DNA of 30,722 bases from a virus: the IMG/VR virus record IMGVR_UViG_3300048020_000148, positions 1 to 30,722 of that record; one strand, written 5' to 3'. Both the position numbers and the translations under genes were made by a program. The notes beneath the pieces are model-generated. The model was not told the origin of the DNA, did no database searches, and saw only the letters and a list, made by a program, of their open reading frames with translations. This document shows positions 16,587-30,722 of this stretch, piece by piece (within the stretch, counting starts at the first letter, position 1; every line of letters starts with the position of its first letter).

Positions 16587-16810
16587 TTCGAAACCTCCTT
16601 TGCTTGTTCGAAATCTGCTCCCATAAGGTGAGCGAAATTCTTTGCCTTTTGATCTGCTTCAGCTTGAGACCTCGCCTCGATCTCGCATGGTGAAAAGATT
16701 TCCCGTTTGTAATTCTTACGGACAAGAATGACTTTAAAAGTCTTAATCCGTTCATAAGGTCTGACAACGCTTCCTCGATCGTTCCCATCTCTTCCGCATC
16801 CGTTAATCAT
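16583..16810 (-). CDS. Uncharacterised small protein in replication operon
   Basis: A 75-residue protein coupled on both sides by ATGA overlaps (with the DnaC-like gene before it and the 42-residue gene after it). The N-terminal part (INGCGRDGNDRGSVVRPYER) is polar. From residue 22 it reads like a small alpha/beta unit: TFKVILVRKNYKREIFSPCEIEARSQAEADQKAKNFAHLMG. Phage proteins of this design (two strands, then a helix beginning with S/A-EAD) are common and uncharacterised. No motif allows a function. Confidence 0.5.
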   Translation of the reverse strand: MINGCGRDGNDRGSVVRPYERIKTFKVILVRKNYKREIFSPCEIEARSQAEADQKAKNFAHLMGADFEQAKEVSK

Positions 16811-17634
16811 AAATCAAAACCTCCTTGTTGTTGAGGGACGAAAGAGACAACTTGAAAAAACTCTTTCACCCTCGCAAAAAATGCTTCGCATCGTTTCGGA
16901 GAATGGAATCTTTGCTTCGCTTCTTTTGCAGTTAATTGAGTTGTGATCAGAGTCGGTCGATTCCATGAGATTCTTTCGTCCAGAATATCGAACATCGATG
17001 ACTCGACTCGCTCCGTTAGTTTTGAAGCAAAAAGATCATCAATAAAAAGAATATTTGCCGAGGTGATTTCATATTTCCACTTTCTGAACGATCGCTCGGA
17101 TCGGATGACCTCGACAAGTTCATCATTAAAATTGCCATGAAAGAAAGTCTTCACGGAATGACCTTCCTTGATTAGAGCGTCAAGAAGGAGGCAAATCGTC
17201 CTCGTCTTACCTTGCCTAGTGTCTCCGACTACCCATAACCCTTTCCCGTCCCTCTGCGGTCTCCATCGTCCAACCTCATCCCGTTGCGGATATGGCAAGC
17301 GATTATAATCGGTCGAGTGGTAAAGCGGAGGAATCAAGCTTGATTTTTGCTCAAGATGTTTTGTCTCCTTTTCTTCGTCTCCCTGCTCCCTCTCTTTCTT
17401 CTTTGCTATTTCAAGACAAGGTTCACATCTTGCGGTTGGAACAATGCCAAAATAAATCGGATTCCACATTTCCTTTTTTCCACAATCTGGACAAGTCCAT
17501 TCTTCCTCCTCGAATTTCTTGTGAGTTTCGTTTGTATCCGACATCAGATCGAGCAAATTCCAATCCCTCGGATCGGATGGGAGGACTCGATTTTGTGGCT
17601 CGAATAGTTTTTTAGGTTCTGCGATTTCGCTCAT
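16807..17634 (-). CDS. DnaC-like helicase loader ATPase with zinc finger
   Basis: A 275-residue protein. Residues 48-73 contain two Cys pairs (C48-x2-C51 and C70-x2-C73), a zinc finger. An AAA+ core of the DnaC/IstB/DnaI type follows, with a Walker A-like loop GDTRQGKT (residues 137-144), a Walker B NILFIDD (about 194-200), and an arginine-finger region near FFARVKEFFQVVSF at the C-terminus. This family loads the replicative helicase on origin DNA. It is encoded one gene downstream of the O-like initiator, as in lambda O/P and related phages, and is coupled by ATGA to the sigma-like regulator. The phage encodes no helicase that I can see, so it presumably recruits the host DnaB. Confidence 0.85.
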   Translation of the reverse strand: MSEIAEPKKLFEPQNRVLPSDPRDWNLLDLMSDTNETHKKFEEEEWTCPDCGKKEMWNPIYFGIVPTARCEPCLEIAKKKEREQGDEEKETKHLEQKSSLIPPLYHSTDYNRLPYPQRDEVGRWRPQRDGKGLWVVGDTRQGKTRTICLLLDALIKEGHSVKTFFHGNFNDELVEVIRSERSFRKWKYEITSANILFIDDLFASKLTERVESSMFDILDERISWNRPTLITTQLTAKEAKQRFHSPKRCEAFFARVKEFFQVVSFVPQQQGGFDL

Positions 17635-17963
17635 TGATTCATTTCCTTTTTTATTTGTTTTGTGTGGTGATGGTTTCTGACCTTCCTTAACGCTTGCTTT
17701 TCGATCTGATCGATCCGTTGATGGGTCAGTCCCGTAAATTCTGCGATTTCACGGAGCGAGTAAGAATGGTTTTCGGGTTGTTGGACAACCATGACGGAAA
17801 GAAGATGATCCGTGATCCAAGAATCGATCGTCTTGTCTGGAACGCTCCTCCCTTCCAACCAATTCAAGCAAGTAAAAAAAGAGACATCGCAATCCTCCGC
17901 AAGTTCTCGACTCGCTTCTCTTAATGGTTGTCCGTTCGGTGCTTTTTTTATTGCGGTTTTCAT
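17631..17963 (-). CDS. Regulator with sigma-70 region-4-like helix-turn-helix
   Basis: A 110-residue protein with two DNA-binding-like parts. Residues about 15-45 resemble a Cro/XRE-type helix-turn-helix (REASRELAEDCDVSFFTCLNWLEGRSVP). Residues 68-97 closely follow sigma-70 region 4: YSLREIAEFTGLTHQRIDQI then EKQALRKVRN, with the characteristic T-x-x-R-I-x-Q-I-E-x-x-A-L-x-K-V-R order. Region 2 is missing, so it is unlikely to be a complete sigma factor. It could be an activator that touches host RNA polymerase for late genes, or a replication-linked DNA-binding protein. It overlaps the initiator gene and the DnaC-like gene by ATGA on both sides. Confidence 0.65.
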   Translation of the reverse strand: MKTAIKKAPNGQPLREASRELAEDCDVSFFTCLNWLEGRSVPDKTIDSWITDHLLSVMVVQQPENHSYSLREIAEFTGLTHQRIDQIEKQALRKVRNHHHTKQIKKEMNQ

Positions 17964-18712
17964 AGTGACAATGGGTCGGAATAATTCCGATCGGTGATGG
18001 GTTGCTTTGCTCCGTTTTTATACTCTGGGAAAAATACTCCTTGCCATTGTGCCTTAATCGAGTCCTTGAGTGCTTGAATCGTCGAATCGAGTCCCCACTT
18101 TTTGAACTCTTTGAATTTCGCCTTTGTTGCAGTTGCTCCAAGTTTCCGATGCTTTGCCTCTTTCCTCATCTGCAAGTACTCTTCCCATACCTCCTTGAAG
18201 ATCGGATCGGGAAATGGGAGGTCTTCTTCCTTCCCCTTAACAATCCCCTTATTATCCTTATCCTTATCCTTATCCTTATATAGTACCCTTGAGGAAGGGT
18301 TACCCGACCCTTGACCAACCCTTGAGCTACCCTTGACCAACCCTTGACCAACCCTTGAGCAACCCTTGACCAACCCTTGGTCATCCATCTCATGTCCATG
18401 ATGTTCAAGTGCTTTTAAAATTGGCTTATGATAGTTTGAGGTCGAAGAAAGTTCCGTCCCGAATTGAAACTTGATGAATTTCGGGATCAAAATCTTGTCT
18501 CCAAGATCGACAATCCGATCCCCTAAGTCCTCAACAAGTGCTTTTATTGAAATTCCGATCCCCGTTTCGAACTGAAACTTTTTCTCAAACTTTTCCCATG
18601 TTCCAGAGTGGTCGCAATTATCCAACAAGTACAACCAGAAGACCTTCGCTTTCGGATCGAGATCGACGAACCAAGGGTCTGACCATTTTGTCGTTTCCGT
18701 GTATCTTTTCAT
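17960..18712 (-). CDS. O-like replication initiator containing origin repeats
   Basis: A 250-residue protein. The N-terminal domain (about residues 1-110: RYTETTKWSDPWFVDLDPKAK, FWLYLLDNCDHSGTWEKFEK, ISIKALVEDLGDRIVDLGDK) is a winged-helix phage replication-initiation domain of the lambda O/DnaD-like group. Residues 113-140 are repetitive (QGLVKGCSRVG, QGLVKGSSRVG, QGSG), because the gene carries seven 11-bp iterons at 18307..18383; a KDKDKDKD run follows from a 6-bp repeat. The C-terminal domain (EVWEEYLQMRKEAKHRKLGATATKAKFKEF, QALKDSIKAQWQGVFFPEYKN) resembles the partner-binding domains of phage initiators. By analogy with lambda O, the protein should bind the iterons and recruit the DnaC-like loader. 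No Shine-Dalgarno sequence is present before the ATG. Confidence 0.75.
   Translation of the reverse strand: MKRYTETTKWSDPWFVDLDPKAKVFWLYLLDNCDHSGTWEKFEKKFQFETGIGISIKALVEDLGDRIVDLGDKILIPKFIKFQFGTELSSTSNYHKPILKALEHHGHEMDDQGLVKGCSRVGQGLVKGSSRVGQGSGNPSSRVLYKDKDKDKDNKGIVKGKEEDLPFPDPIFKEVWEEYLQMRKEAKHRKLGATATKAKFKEFKKWGLDSTIQALKDSIKAQWQGVFFPEYKNGAKQPITDRNYSDPLSL
18255..18278 (-). repeat. Hexanucleotide repeat next to iterons
   Basis: Four tandem copies of TCCTTA, encoding the KD run of the initiator. The array lies about 30 bases to the left of the iterons, beside TATATAG, and is A/T-rich, so it could be the DNA-unwinding side of the origin. It may instead simply encode a flexible linker. Confidence 0.55.
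18307..18383. repeat. Seven 11-bp iterons, probable replication origin
   Basis: A perfect-phase tandem array of seven 11-bp units ACCCTTGACCA (variants end in GCT, GCA; the last is ACCCTTGGTCA), 77 bp in total. To the left an inverted repeat ACCCTT-GAGG-AAGGGT (18285..18300) uses the same core. The unit is one helical turn and not a multiple of three, so coding constraint cannot explain its regularity. Position inside the initiator gene parallels the lambda origin inside gene O. Confidence 0.75.
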
Positions 18713-18735
18713 TATTTATTTATTTATTTTTTATT
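18710..18735 (-). repeat. TTTA tetranucleotide tract before initiator ATG
   Basis: On the plus strand an ATTATTTATTTATTTATT-type tract covers the 21-base gap before the initiator start, so the minus-strand leader is AAATAAATAAATAATG. The A/T-only spacer might ease translation without a Shine-Dalgarno sequence. Replication slippage could change its length. Confidence 0.4.
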
Positions 18736-19195
18736 AGTTTTTGACCTTATAAAATTCCTTGAAGAAAAAAGGTGGAATGCAGACCATCGGTTCACGATCG
18801 AAGTCTTTATCCGACCTCTCATCCCCCCACCATATCACCTCAAATTCTTCGTGCTTTCCGAGCCAAGTTTTGAACGAGTAGTCGTTGCATCGAACGATCA
18901 AACAAGTCGAAATCTGCGTTGACTGATGGATGGATTTGATCCTTATCCATTTTTTCAATGGTAAATAAAACCCTCCTCCGTTTGCTATGATCGACCAATT
19001 TTTTCGACGACTGCGAACCTCCAGAAACCCGATGACTTTTTCGTCCGCAGTCAAACAAAAATCGAGGATATCCATCTTCGGCAATTTCTTTGCTTGGATA
19101 TTTGTTCCCCTTGTGATCTCCCCGATCACCTCCCTTTCGAGAGAGAGGTGATGAGGAGTTTCGTAAGAGTCCTTGAATGATCTTTTCTCGATCAT
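18734..19195 (-). CDS. PD-(D/E)XK nuclease-like protein
   Basis: A 153-residue protein with a nuclease-like core. An N-terminal helix carries E20/E26 (SLEREVIGEITRG). The strand KMDILDFCLTADEK contains D42/D45, and the next strand VIGFLEVRSRRKN contains E59-V-R61, matching the D...ExK arrangement of PD-(D/E)XK enzymes with R in place of K. Related small phage proteins often sit in recombination or replication modules and act on branched or ssDNA. The Lys-to-Arg change could lower or abolish cleavage, so it may be a binding protein. It begins within the SSB-like gene's stop (TAATG) and ends 21 bases before the initiator gene. Confidence 0.55.
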   Translation of the reverse strand: MIEKRSFKDSYETPHHLSLEREVIGEITRGTNIQAKKLPKMDILDFCLTADEKVIGFLEVRSRRKNWSIIANGGGFYLPLKKWIRIKSIHQSTQISTCLIVRCNDYSFKTWLGKHEEFEVIWWGDERSDKDFDREPMVCIPPFFFKEFYKVKN

Positions 19196-29832: not shown

Positions 29833-30722
29833 CGACGACCGAAACGGAATTTAGTTGCCATCCCGTTGCATCTTTCGGGTGGGTGGGGACGGATGATTTA
29901 TAATTGTAAGTGCTACCCATGTGCGAGTAAGACAGAAGGGTGGTCGTCCCGTTTCCTCTAGTTAATACCCACCTAATATTGCTTGAAGACTGAGGATTCG
30001 ATTCGATTTTGACTTGAGGTCGTGATGACCCGTTTACCCCCTCATAAATAGGGAAGACATAACCACCACCCATGTCAGTTTCACCGACCTTTGTGAAGGT
30101 AAATGATCCGCTCAAATAATAGGAAGAGGAGGTGACGCAAATTGTTTCGGGTGCTTGCGTGGTGGGTGCTTGCGTGGTCGGTGCAAGCGTTGTTCCATTA
30201 TGGGAAAAAGTTCCGCTTATTGTGGTCACAAAAACATTCGAAACGGGAGTTAATAAATTCACCGAATCTGAAACAATCAAAAGCTCATCTCCTGCACTCA
30301 TCGGGAATTGATACATATTGTACAACCTCCACTTGCCATCAATGAATTTAATCGACCCCCATGATGACGAATACCAATCTTCAGAGTTTGTATTGTTTTT
30401 GACAAAAGTATCAACATAATCATTTCCGCTTTTTGTATATCCAAAATATGTATGACTCGGAATCGCTTGAACTGCACTTCCCGACAAATCAAAACTATGC
30501 GGAACGAAGGCGAGAGTTGTAGTGGGTGCTTGTGTAGTCGGTGCTTGCGTAGTGGGTGCTTGCGTGGTGGGTGCTTGCGTGGTGGGTGCTTGTGTGGTGG
30601 GTGCTTGTGTGGTGGGTGCTTGTGTGGTGGGTGCAATATAAAGCTCAGTCCTAACTAAATATTGATTGTGGCTCGACCAAATTACTGACCCGTTAGAACG
30701 AAGATATCTTTTCCCTCCACTT
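29819..30722 (-). CDS. Tail fibre protein with TTQAP repeats, C-terminal part, open at window edge
   Basis: 301 codons open to the right edge with no start in the window; position 30722 is the last base of a codon that would be completed by the GC at positions 2-1. The sequence begins SGGKRYLRSNGS, then LYIAPTTQAP, seven PTTQA units, PTTTLA, a domain of about 100 residues (HSFDLSGSAVQAIPSHTYFG, EDWYSSSWGSIKFIDGKWRL), a second short linker (TTLAPTTQAPTTQAPE), and a C-terminal beta-type domain (SSYYLSGSFTFTKVGETDMG, GGYVFPIYEGVNGSSRPQVK, IRWVLTRGNGTTTLL, ATGWQLNSVSVVDGSC). A modular adhesion protein of the tail tip; receptor binding is inferred. Confidence 0.7.
   Translation of the reverse strand, partial: SGGKRYLRSNGSVIWSSHNQYLVRTELYIAPTTQAPTTQAPTTQAPTTQAPTTQAPTTQAPTTQAPTTTLAFVPHSFDLSGSAVQAIPSHTYFGYTKSGNDYVDTFVKNNTNSEDWYSSSWGSIKFIDGKWRLYNMYQFPMSAGDELLIVSDSVNLLTPVSNVFVTTISGTFSHNGTTLAPTTQAPTTQAPETICVTSSSYYLSGSFTFTKVGETDMGGGYVFPIYEGVNGSSRPQVKIESNPQSSSNIRWVLTRGNGTTTLLSYSHMGSTYNYKSSVPTHPKDATGWQLNSVSVVDGSC
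30518..30633 (-). repeat. 15-bp tandem repeat coding PTTQA
   Basis: Seven or so 15-bp units on the minus strand (GCACCCACCACACAA and near-identical variants) encode a run of APTTQ. The unit is divisible by three, so expansions or losses would be in frame. Confidence 0.75.

Follow-up and report, generated by a model that had tools for sequence, protein, structure and literature searches.

The viral record analyzed here (30,722 bases, the whole of which is referred to below as the window) very probably carries the theta-type replication origin of the phage within its replication initiator gene, where an array of nine iteron slots of exactly 11 bp adjoins a melt-prone hexamer tract. The analysis shows how this sequence is built, that it is conserved as DNA, that it goes together with initiator genes and that it resembles the origins of characterized lactococcal phages; we infer that in this phage the initiator binds the array and forms a filament, that the tract is melted and that the opened DNA is handed over to a helicase loader.

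The initial annotation reported seven uninterrupted 11-bp units, and seven CAAGGGTnnnn units are indeed present back to back on the coding (minus) strand at 18307-18383, with no insertion or deletion; TRF detects a period of 11 (6.6 copies, 90% matches, 0 indels) and also a period of 33 (97% matches). The array is, however, longer than reported and comprises nine slots at 18281-18379 (minus strand), of which slots 1-7 and 9 are direct and slot 8 is inverted. The inverted copy (AAGGGT on the plus strand, 18295-18300) fills its slot to within about 1 bp, and the direct copy in slot 9 (18285-18291) lies exactly 22 bp from copy seven. The repeat core, previously given as 8 bp, is invariant over 7 bp only (CAAGGGT on the coding strand, ACCCTTG on the plus strand), being limited by the rightmost copy of the array, ACCCTTGG. 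Compared with the consensus unit, the eight direct copies contain nine substitutions, all of which (9/9) are confined to the 4-bp spacer, so that the 7-bp core is free of changes. Since the copies cycle through the codon frames (0,2,1,0,2,1,0 for the seven successive units), the protein repeat only returns every 33 bp (QGLVKGCSRVG / QGLVKGSSRVG). A search of the window for three spaced core copies with up to 3 mismatches recovered this array only, and none of 100 shuffles yielded a comparable match. The other strong tandem arrays of the window have periods of 15, 21 and 27 bp, each divisible by three, and their protein repeats are rich in threonine and proline: the in-frame 21/27-bp repeats at 1413-1565 encode TTPFPSS and the 15-bp repeats at 30518-30634 encode TTQAP. 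The proteins concerned, located near both ends of the record, are apparently tail or surface proteins.

Directly after slot 9 begins the hexamer tract ATATAAGGATAAGGATAAGGATAAGGATAA, which extends over 18252-18283 on the minus strand (TATAAGGATAAGGATAAGGATAAGG), codes for YKDKDKDKD and contains the TTATCC repeats (18252-18279; 4.7 copies according to TRF). The inverted ACCCTT/AAGGGT pair and the A/T-rich repeats of the initial annotation do adjoin the array, but what was described there as the left side is downstream in this minus-strand gene. The tract, a candidate unwinding element, ranks among the least stable 3-5% of the 30-60 bp stretches of the window, and a melt-prone tract adjoining the repeats recurs in the homologues. 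The tract is nevertheless surpassed in instability by an A/T run (TTATTTATTTATT, 18711-18745) that lies some 330 bp away from the array, just upstream of the initiator start codon; this run, which is the lowest-stability stretch of the window at both 30 and 60 bp, may represent a leader or a second place at which the DNA could open. Across 68 homologous tracts, the hexamers resemble AAGGAT, AAG is used over AAA (OR 2.5, p=9e-15), by which the A/T content is lowered, and GAT over GAC (OR 2.1, p=9e-7); furthermore, two or more K/D positions have turned to M or V by A-to-T changes in 14 of the 68. This pattern points to a constraint on the DNA hexamer itself, beyond charge or A/T content, although repeat expansion via slippage could have contributed to it as well. 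A DnaA-trio reading of the tract was rejected, given that triplets like GAT and the TGG and GTT variants are unlike [T/A]A[G/A]. Overuse of GATC, striking by eye, turned out to be near expectation (330 vs 294 expected).

The gene that contains the array and the tract (17960-18712, minus strand, an ORF of 250 aa) encodes a phage initiator, judging from the match of its C-terminal part (aa 146-243) to phrog_678 (replication initiation, O-like; E=1.8e-10). The N-terminal domain (aa 1-105, 18398-18712, minus strand) belongs to no Pfam family and is predicted to be a winged-helix-like, DNA-binding domain; it is modelled confidently by AlphaFold2 (pLDDT 82-97 per 10-residue block, mean 88.6 when modelled alone) and is conserved in 46 aligned homologues. 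Searches with the initiator protein returned no match in Pfam and none in a PDB sequence search, and fold searches of the PDB, whether based on the full-length protein or on its N-terminal domain, gave no match at E<=0.001; a fold search of a viral structure library produced weak matches to replisome organizers. The linker that follows (aa 106-168, 18209-18397, minus strand) is disordered in the model (pLDDT mostly <60 for residues 111-170) and is encoded by the array and the tract; given this overlap, an origin placed in linker code would be free to follow selection at the DNA level. The C-terminal three-helix domain (aa 170-223, 18044-18205, minus strand; helices 170-186, 193-205 and 209-223 in the model), to which the phrog_678 match corresponds, likely contacts the helicase loader or the replisome. 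The DnaC-like helicase loader gene (16807-17634, minus strand; phrog_50, E=4.2e-18) is close to the array, two genes past the initiator, and the gene in between (17631-17963, minus strand) encodes a small HTH protein whose motif resembles sigma-70 region 4 (Pfam Sigma70_r4, E=1.6e-7). At the homologue loci, a P-loop ORF is found within 3.5 kb downstream in 32 of 84 cases, and 4 match the loader of the window. Other nearby genes encode an Erf-like annealing protein, a PolB-type exonuclease and a large serine integrase.

The contribution of the protein sequence to the 11-bp period was assessed with synonymous nulls in which the protein was kept fixed and either codons were resampled from the phage usage or the gene's own codons were permuted (20,000 draws each). 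The observed 11-bp match fraction is 0.89, against null means of 0.49 and 0.59 and maxima of 0.76 and 0.82, so that none of the 20,000 recodings reached the observed periodicity under either null. Given that the recodings never attain it, the amino-acid sequence alone does not give the DNA period.

Protein searches of viral contigs and genomes yielded 196 initiators, 96 of them at <85% N-terminal identity; the genome search with the initiator protein found five distant loci only. In 69 deduplicated cases, the linker that joins the N-terminal domain to the KDKD tract was analyzed with a per-gene synonymous null, and the best lag was 11 bp in 52 of these linkers, 10 bp in 2 and 12 bp in 2, counts that are not independent events because the linkers share descent. 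Values of p<=0.01 were obtained at lag 11 in 35 of the 69, at lag 22 in 13 and at other lags in 0-2, and the mean z is 2.64 at lag 11, with lag 22 as the runner-up (1.03). The core differs by branch: CAAGGGT or AAGGGTAnnnn in L004, L008 and L173; AAGCCCCTTnn twice plus AAGGGGCT in L242, L251 and L253; ATCCCATnnnn six times with an inverted copy in L005; and AACAGTTnnnn in L007. The direct cores of the homologues are distributed over the codon frames as 60/57/48, and an inverted copy is present near the tract in 43 of the 56 homologues with non-palindromic lag-11 cores, compared with 12 for the reversed and 8 for the complemented control. When homologues (roughly 23-48% identity) are compared, as the initial annotation proposed, the amino acids of the linker and even the core vary, whereas the DNA retains its 11-bp period; the opposite pattern, a conserved amino-acid repeat with a lost DNA period, accordingly did not occur. 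According to the synonymous nulls, selection on the DNA maintains multiple direct repeats both in the window and in the homologues, and the earlier suggestion that the DNA itself is the probable target stands. In one branch of mutually very similar genes with the same N-terminal domain (L009-L029), neither iterons nor the KDKD tract are found in the gene, so the origin of these phages must lie elsewhere. In three homologues (L024, L157 and L186), the N-terminal domain is followed by an additional segment whose motifs, by eye, are HNH-endonuclease-like (CEYCQ...VIDHFIP; VVDHIIP); these segments are possibly homing-type insertions beside the origin.

Selection on the protein could in principle produce such a locus if a flexible low-complexity linker (KG/QG and KDKD repeats) were needed and the DNA repeat were its by-product; the region is a disordered linker in the AlphaFold2 model, and KDKDKD is kept widely at the protein level. 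We nevertheless regard this explanation as extremely unlikely because, for the array, it is contradicted by the loss of the observed period in all 20,000 of 20,000 synonymous recodings, the cores use all three frames and homologues with a common core have differing linker residues, whereas for the tract, the K/M and D/V swaps in 14 of 68 cases, together with the biased synonymous codons, argue for a DNA-level constraint. Neutral tandem duplication through replication slippage easily makes tandem repeats and would be compatible with copy numbers that differ among homologues, but it is scarcely credible as the source of an array in which all nine substitutions fall in the 4-bp spacer, leaving the 7-bp core untouched, in which one slot is inverted yet in register, and whose 11-bp pitch is kept across families despite different cores, with 10 or 12 bp being rare.

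Independently of the homologue set, the 11-bp pitch was recovered in a scan that was blind to iterons and to homology, in which AAGGATAAGGATAAGGATAAGG alone was sought. Among the 63 usable distinct linkers in ORFs, the best lag was 11 bp in 34 and 10 bp in 3, with every other lag accounting for at most 4. Many of these ORFs match initiator PHROGs (270, 9474, 428, DnaD-like 1701, O-like 678/345) and 20 of 53 match Pfam DUF6291, although some of the PHROG and DUF6291 matches may be aided by the low-complexity tract. BLAST grouping of the N-termini, to which those from the window, r1t and Tuc2009 were joined, resulted in two large groups with no link between them, namely the family of the window (35 members, 17 significant) and a DUF6291-type group (21, 8 significant); the remainder consists of a pair with one significant member and eight singletons, none significant. 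The DUF6291 (PF19808) genes are similar to that of the window in that 11-bp AAGCGAAnnnn arrays directly precede the same (AAGGAT)n tract, but their N-terminus has no BLAST link to that of the window. The genes with such arrays are L321, L324, L326, L335, L342, L352, L364, L372 and L387. The association ties a Pfam family of unknown function to origin-type arrays and points to DUF6291 as the domain with which these initiators bind DNA.

As a control, the same lag test was run on lambda O and P22; for lambda O it returned the iteron spacings given in the annotation (20/24/23 bp), and for P22 it found 24/23/20. The r1t ORF11 carries four GGAACCnnnnn units spaced at 11 bp (p=0.005), after which come a GATAAGAATAGATTA tract and then a DnaC-like gene; in Tuc2009 Rep, the record of which is annotated as 'contains origin of replication', CAACCAnnnnn occurs four times at 11 bp, with a weaker signal (p=0.047), and is followed by AGGATAGGAT repeats. 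Arrays of 11 bp are also present in phages 38502, NF5 and Javan207. No 11-bp array was found in phiJB (including its annotated origin), AQ113, Fpv7 or TP901-1 rep, some of which are r1t-like isolates; given the TP901-1 rep and the phiJB origin, the 11-bp rule is not universal. According to PMC8965321, Tuc2009 ORF16 and TP901-1 ORF13 bind direct repeats inside their own genes that serve as ori, and r1t ORF11 is named as a homologue of Rep2009.

The locus of the window is similar to those of r1t ORF11 and Tuc2009 Rep2009 (ORF16) in having origin-type repeats of 11-bp units in the linker-coding part of the initiator gene and short A/T- and purine-rich repeats directly after the array, with a DnaC-like loader gene next in r1t. 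The differences concern the core (GGAACC and CAACCA vs CAAGGGT), the number of units (4 vs 9) and the period of the tract (15 or 5 bp vs 6 bp). The order of putative 11-bp iterons followed by a short-repeat tract is that of the r1t/Tuc2009 replisome-organizer family. The N-terminal domains are connected through intermediates (a single-linkage BLAST chain with L369/L391, E about 1e-5), and in a comparison with hhalign the similarity is marginal (probability 21%, E=0.0011). With lambda O/ori-lambda and P22 gene 18, the window has in common the location of the iterons in the initiator gene, the AT-rich tract alongside and the helicase-loading or helicase gene next, and the match of aa 146-243 to the O-like phrog_678 indicates that the C-terminal domain is O-like as well. 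In contrast, the 18-bp iterons of lambda, spaced at about two turns (20/24/23 bp, and 24/23/20 in P22), have no counterpart in the window, where one 7-bp core recurs per 11 bp, and no relation to the lambda or P22 proteins was detected for the N-terminal domain. The lambda-like layout initially proposed for the locus holds with respect to the iterons and the adjoining tract, whereas the closest precedent is r1t/Tuc2009. In Stx and lambda phages, the origin consists of the gene O iterons and an AT-rich tract, and O binding does not need the AT-rich tract (PMC7466680). The oriL of SPP1 is similar by its published description, with direct repeats and an AT-rich unwinding element within gene 38 and a dedicated helicase loader (PMC6316719). 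The proposed origin is of a known kind, closest to the r1t/Tuc2009 type, and would work like the lambda origin.

Under the mechanism that we propose, the origin would be embedded in the stretch of the initiator gene that codes for the disordered linker, and the N-terminal domain would bind one CAAGGGT per slot, in nine slots, at a strict 11-bp pitch. The bound initiators would build a regular helical nucleoprotein filament, an analogue of the O-some, the stop of which may be set by the inverted copy near the end of the array. Strain or protein contact from the filament end would then open the adjoining purine-strand hexamer tract, and the C-terminal domain would pass the single strand to the DnaC-like loader, which in turn would load the replicative helicase. 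The cumulative GC skew of the window, proposed in the initial annotation as a check for an origin, shows no turn at 18.3 kb; it is uninformative because almost all genes share a strand, which makes skew a poor indicator for or against an origin, and with no switch seen, the origin activity itself is what we infer. The skew would also be compatible with replication starting elsewhere and the array being an operator for autorepression or for limiting copy number, given that sites for a DNA-binding protein in its own gene can be roadblocks or titration sites. Such an arrangement is very unlikely because the sites are about 330 bp inside the gene and not at the promoter, are coupled to a melt-prone tract across families and, in the closest characterized relatives, such repeats serve as origins (PMC8965321). 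An operator function could be an additional role of the array.

With regard to the pitch of the origin array, 11 bp had been equated with one helical turn, which is nearly but not exactly correct for B-DNA: over nine slots the drift amounts to about 4.5 bp, so that the sites wind gently around the helix if the DNA is not constrained to 11 bp per turn. For same-face binding on DNA with 10.5 bp per turn, spacings of 10 and 11 bp are about equally good. As the best lag, 11 bp prevails over 10 bp by 52 vs 2 in the homologues and by 34 vs 3 in the tract scan; given that 10 bp drifts equally in the other sense and yet is rare, we hypothesize that the pitch more likely comes from a protein filament or footprint than from same-face geometry alone. 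It is conceivable, if rather doubtful, that phage initiator filaments have a structural rule of exactly 11 bp in common and that the spacing is part of the opening mechanism. In that case, a row of identical protomers, one every 11 bp, would force the DNA to about 11 bp per turn, by which the array would be slightly unwound and melting would be driven into the adjoining hexamer tract; the rule would span initiator families for which BLAST detects no homology, and origins and binding sites could be predicted straight from metagenomic DNA. The preference for 11 over 10 bp is the less expected part of these results, and it makes DNA melting by initiators testable through spacing alone; the cross-family regularity, no description of which was found in the open-access text searched and which may be described elsewhere, lifts the case above routine annotation. 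For this uncultivated phage, the analysis provides a candidate origin, initiator and binding site, and for unclassified phages, a signature (11-bp array, inverted copy near its end, period-6 tract, disordered linker) by which origins and cognate sites could be recognized.

In a scan of viral contigs for AAGGGT triplets, most of the matches listed were protein repeats that stay in frame, with periods of 9, 12 and 18 bp. Among the listed matches with uniform periods that are not multiples of three, 11 bp leads, with at least 15 cases compared with at least 4 at 10 bp and at least 1 at 8 bp. AAGGGT arrays at 12 bp are present in L049, L054, L075 and L086, at least two of which end in an inverted copy; given that such arrays exist, 12 bp may be an alternative pitch.
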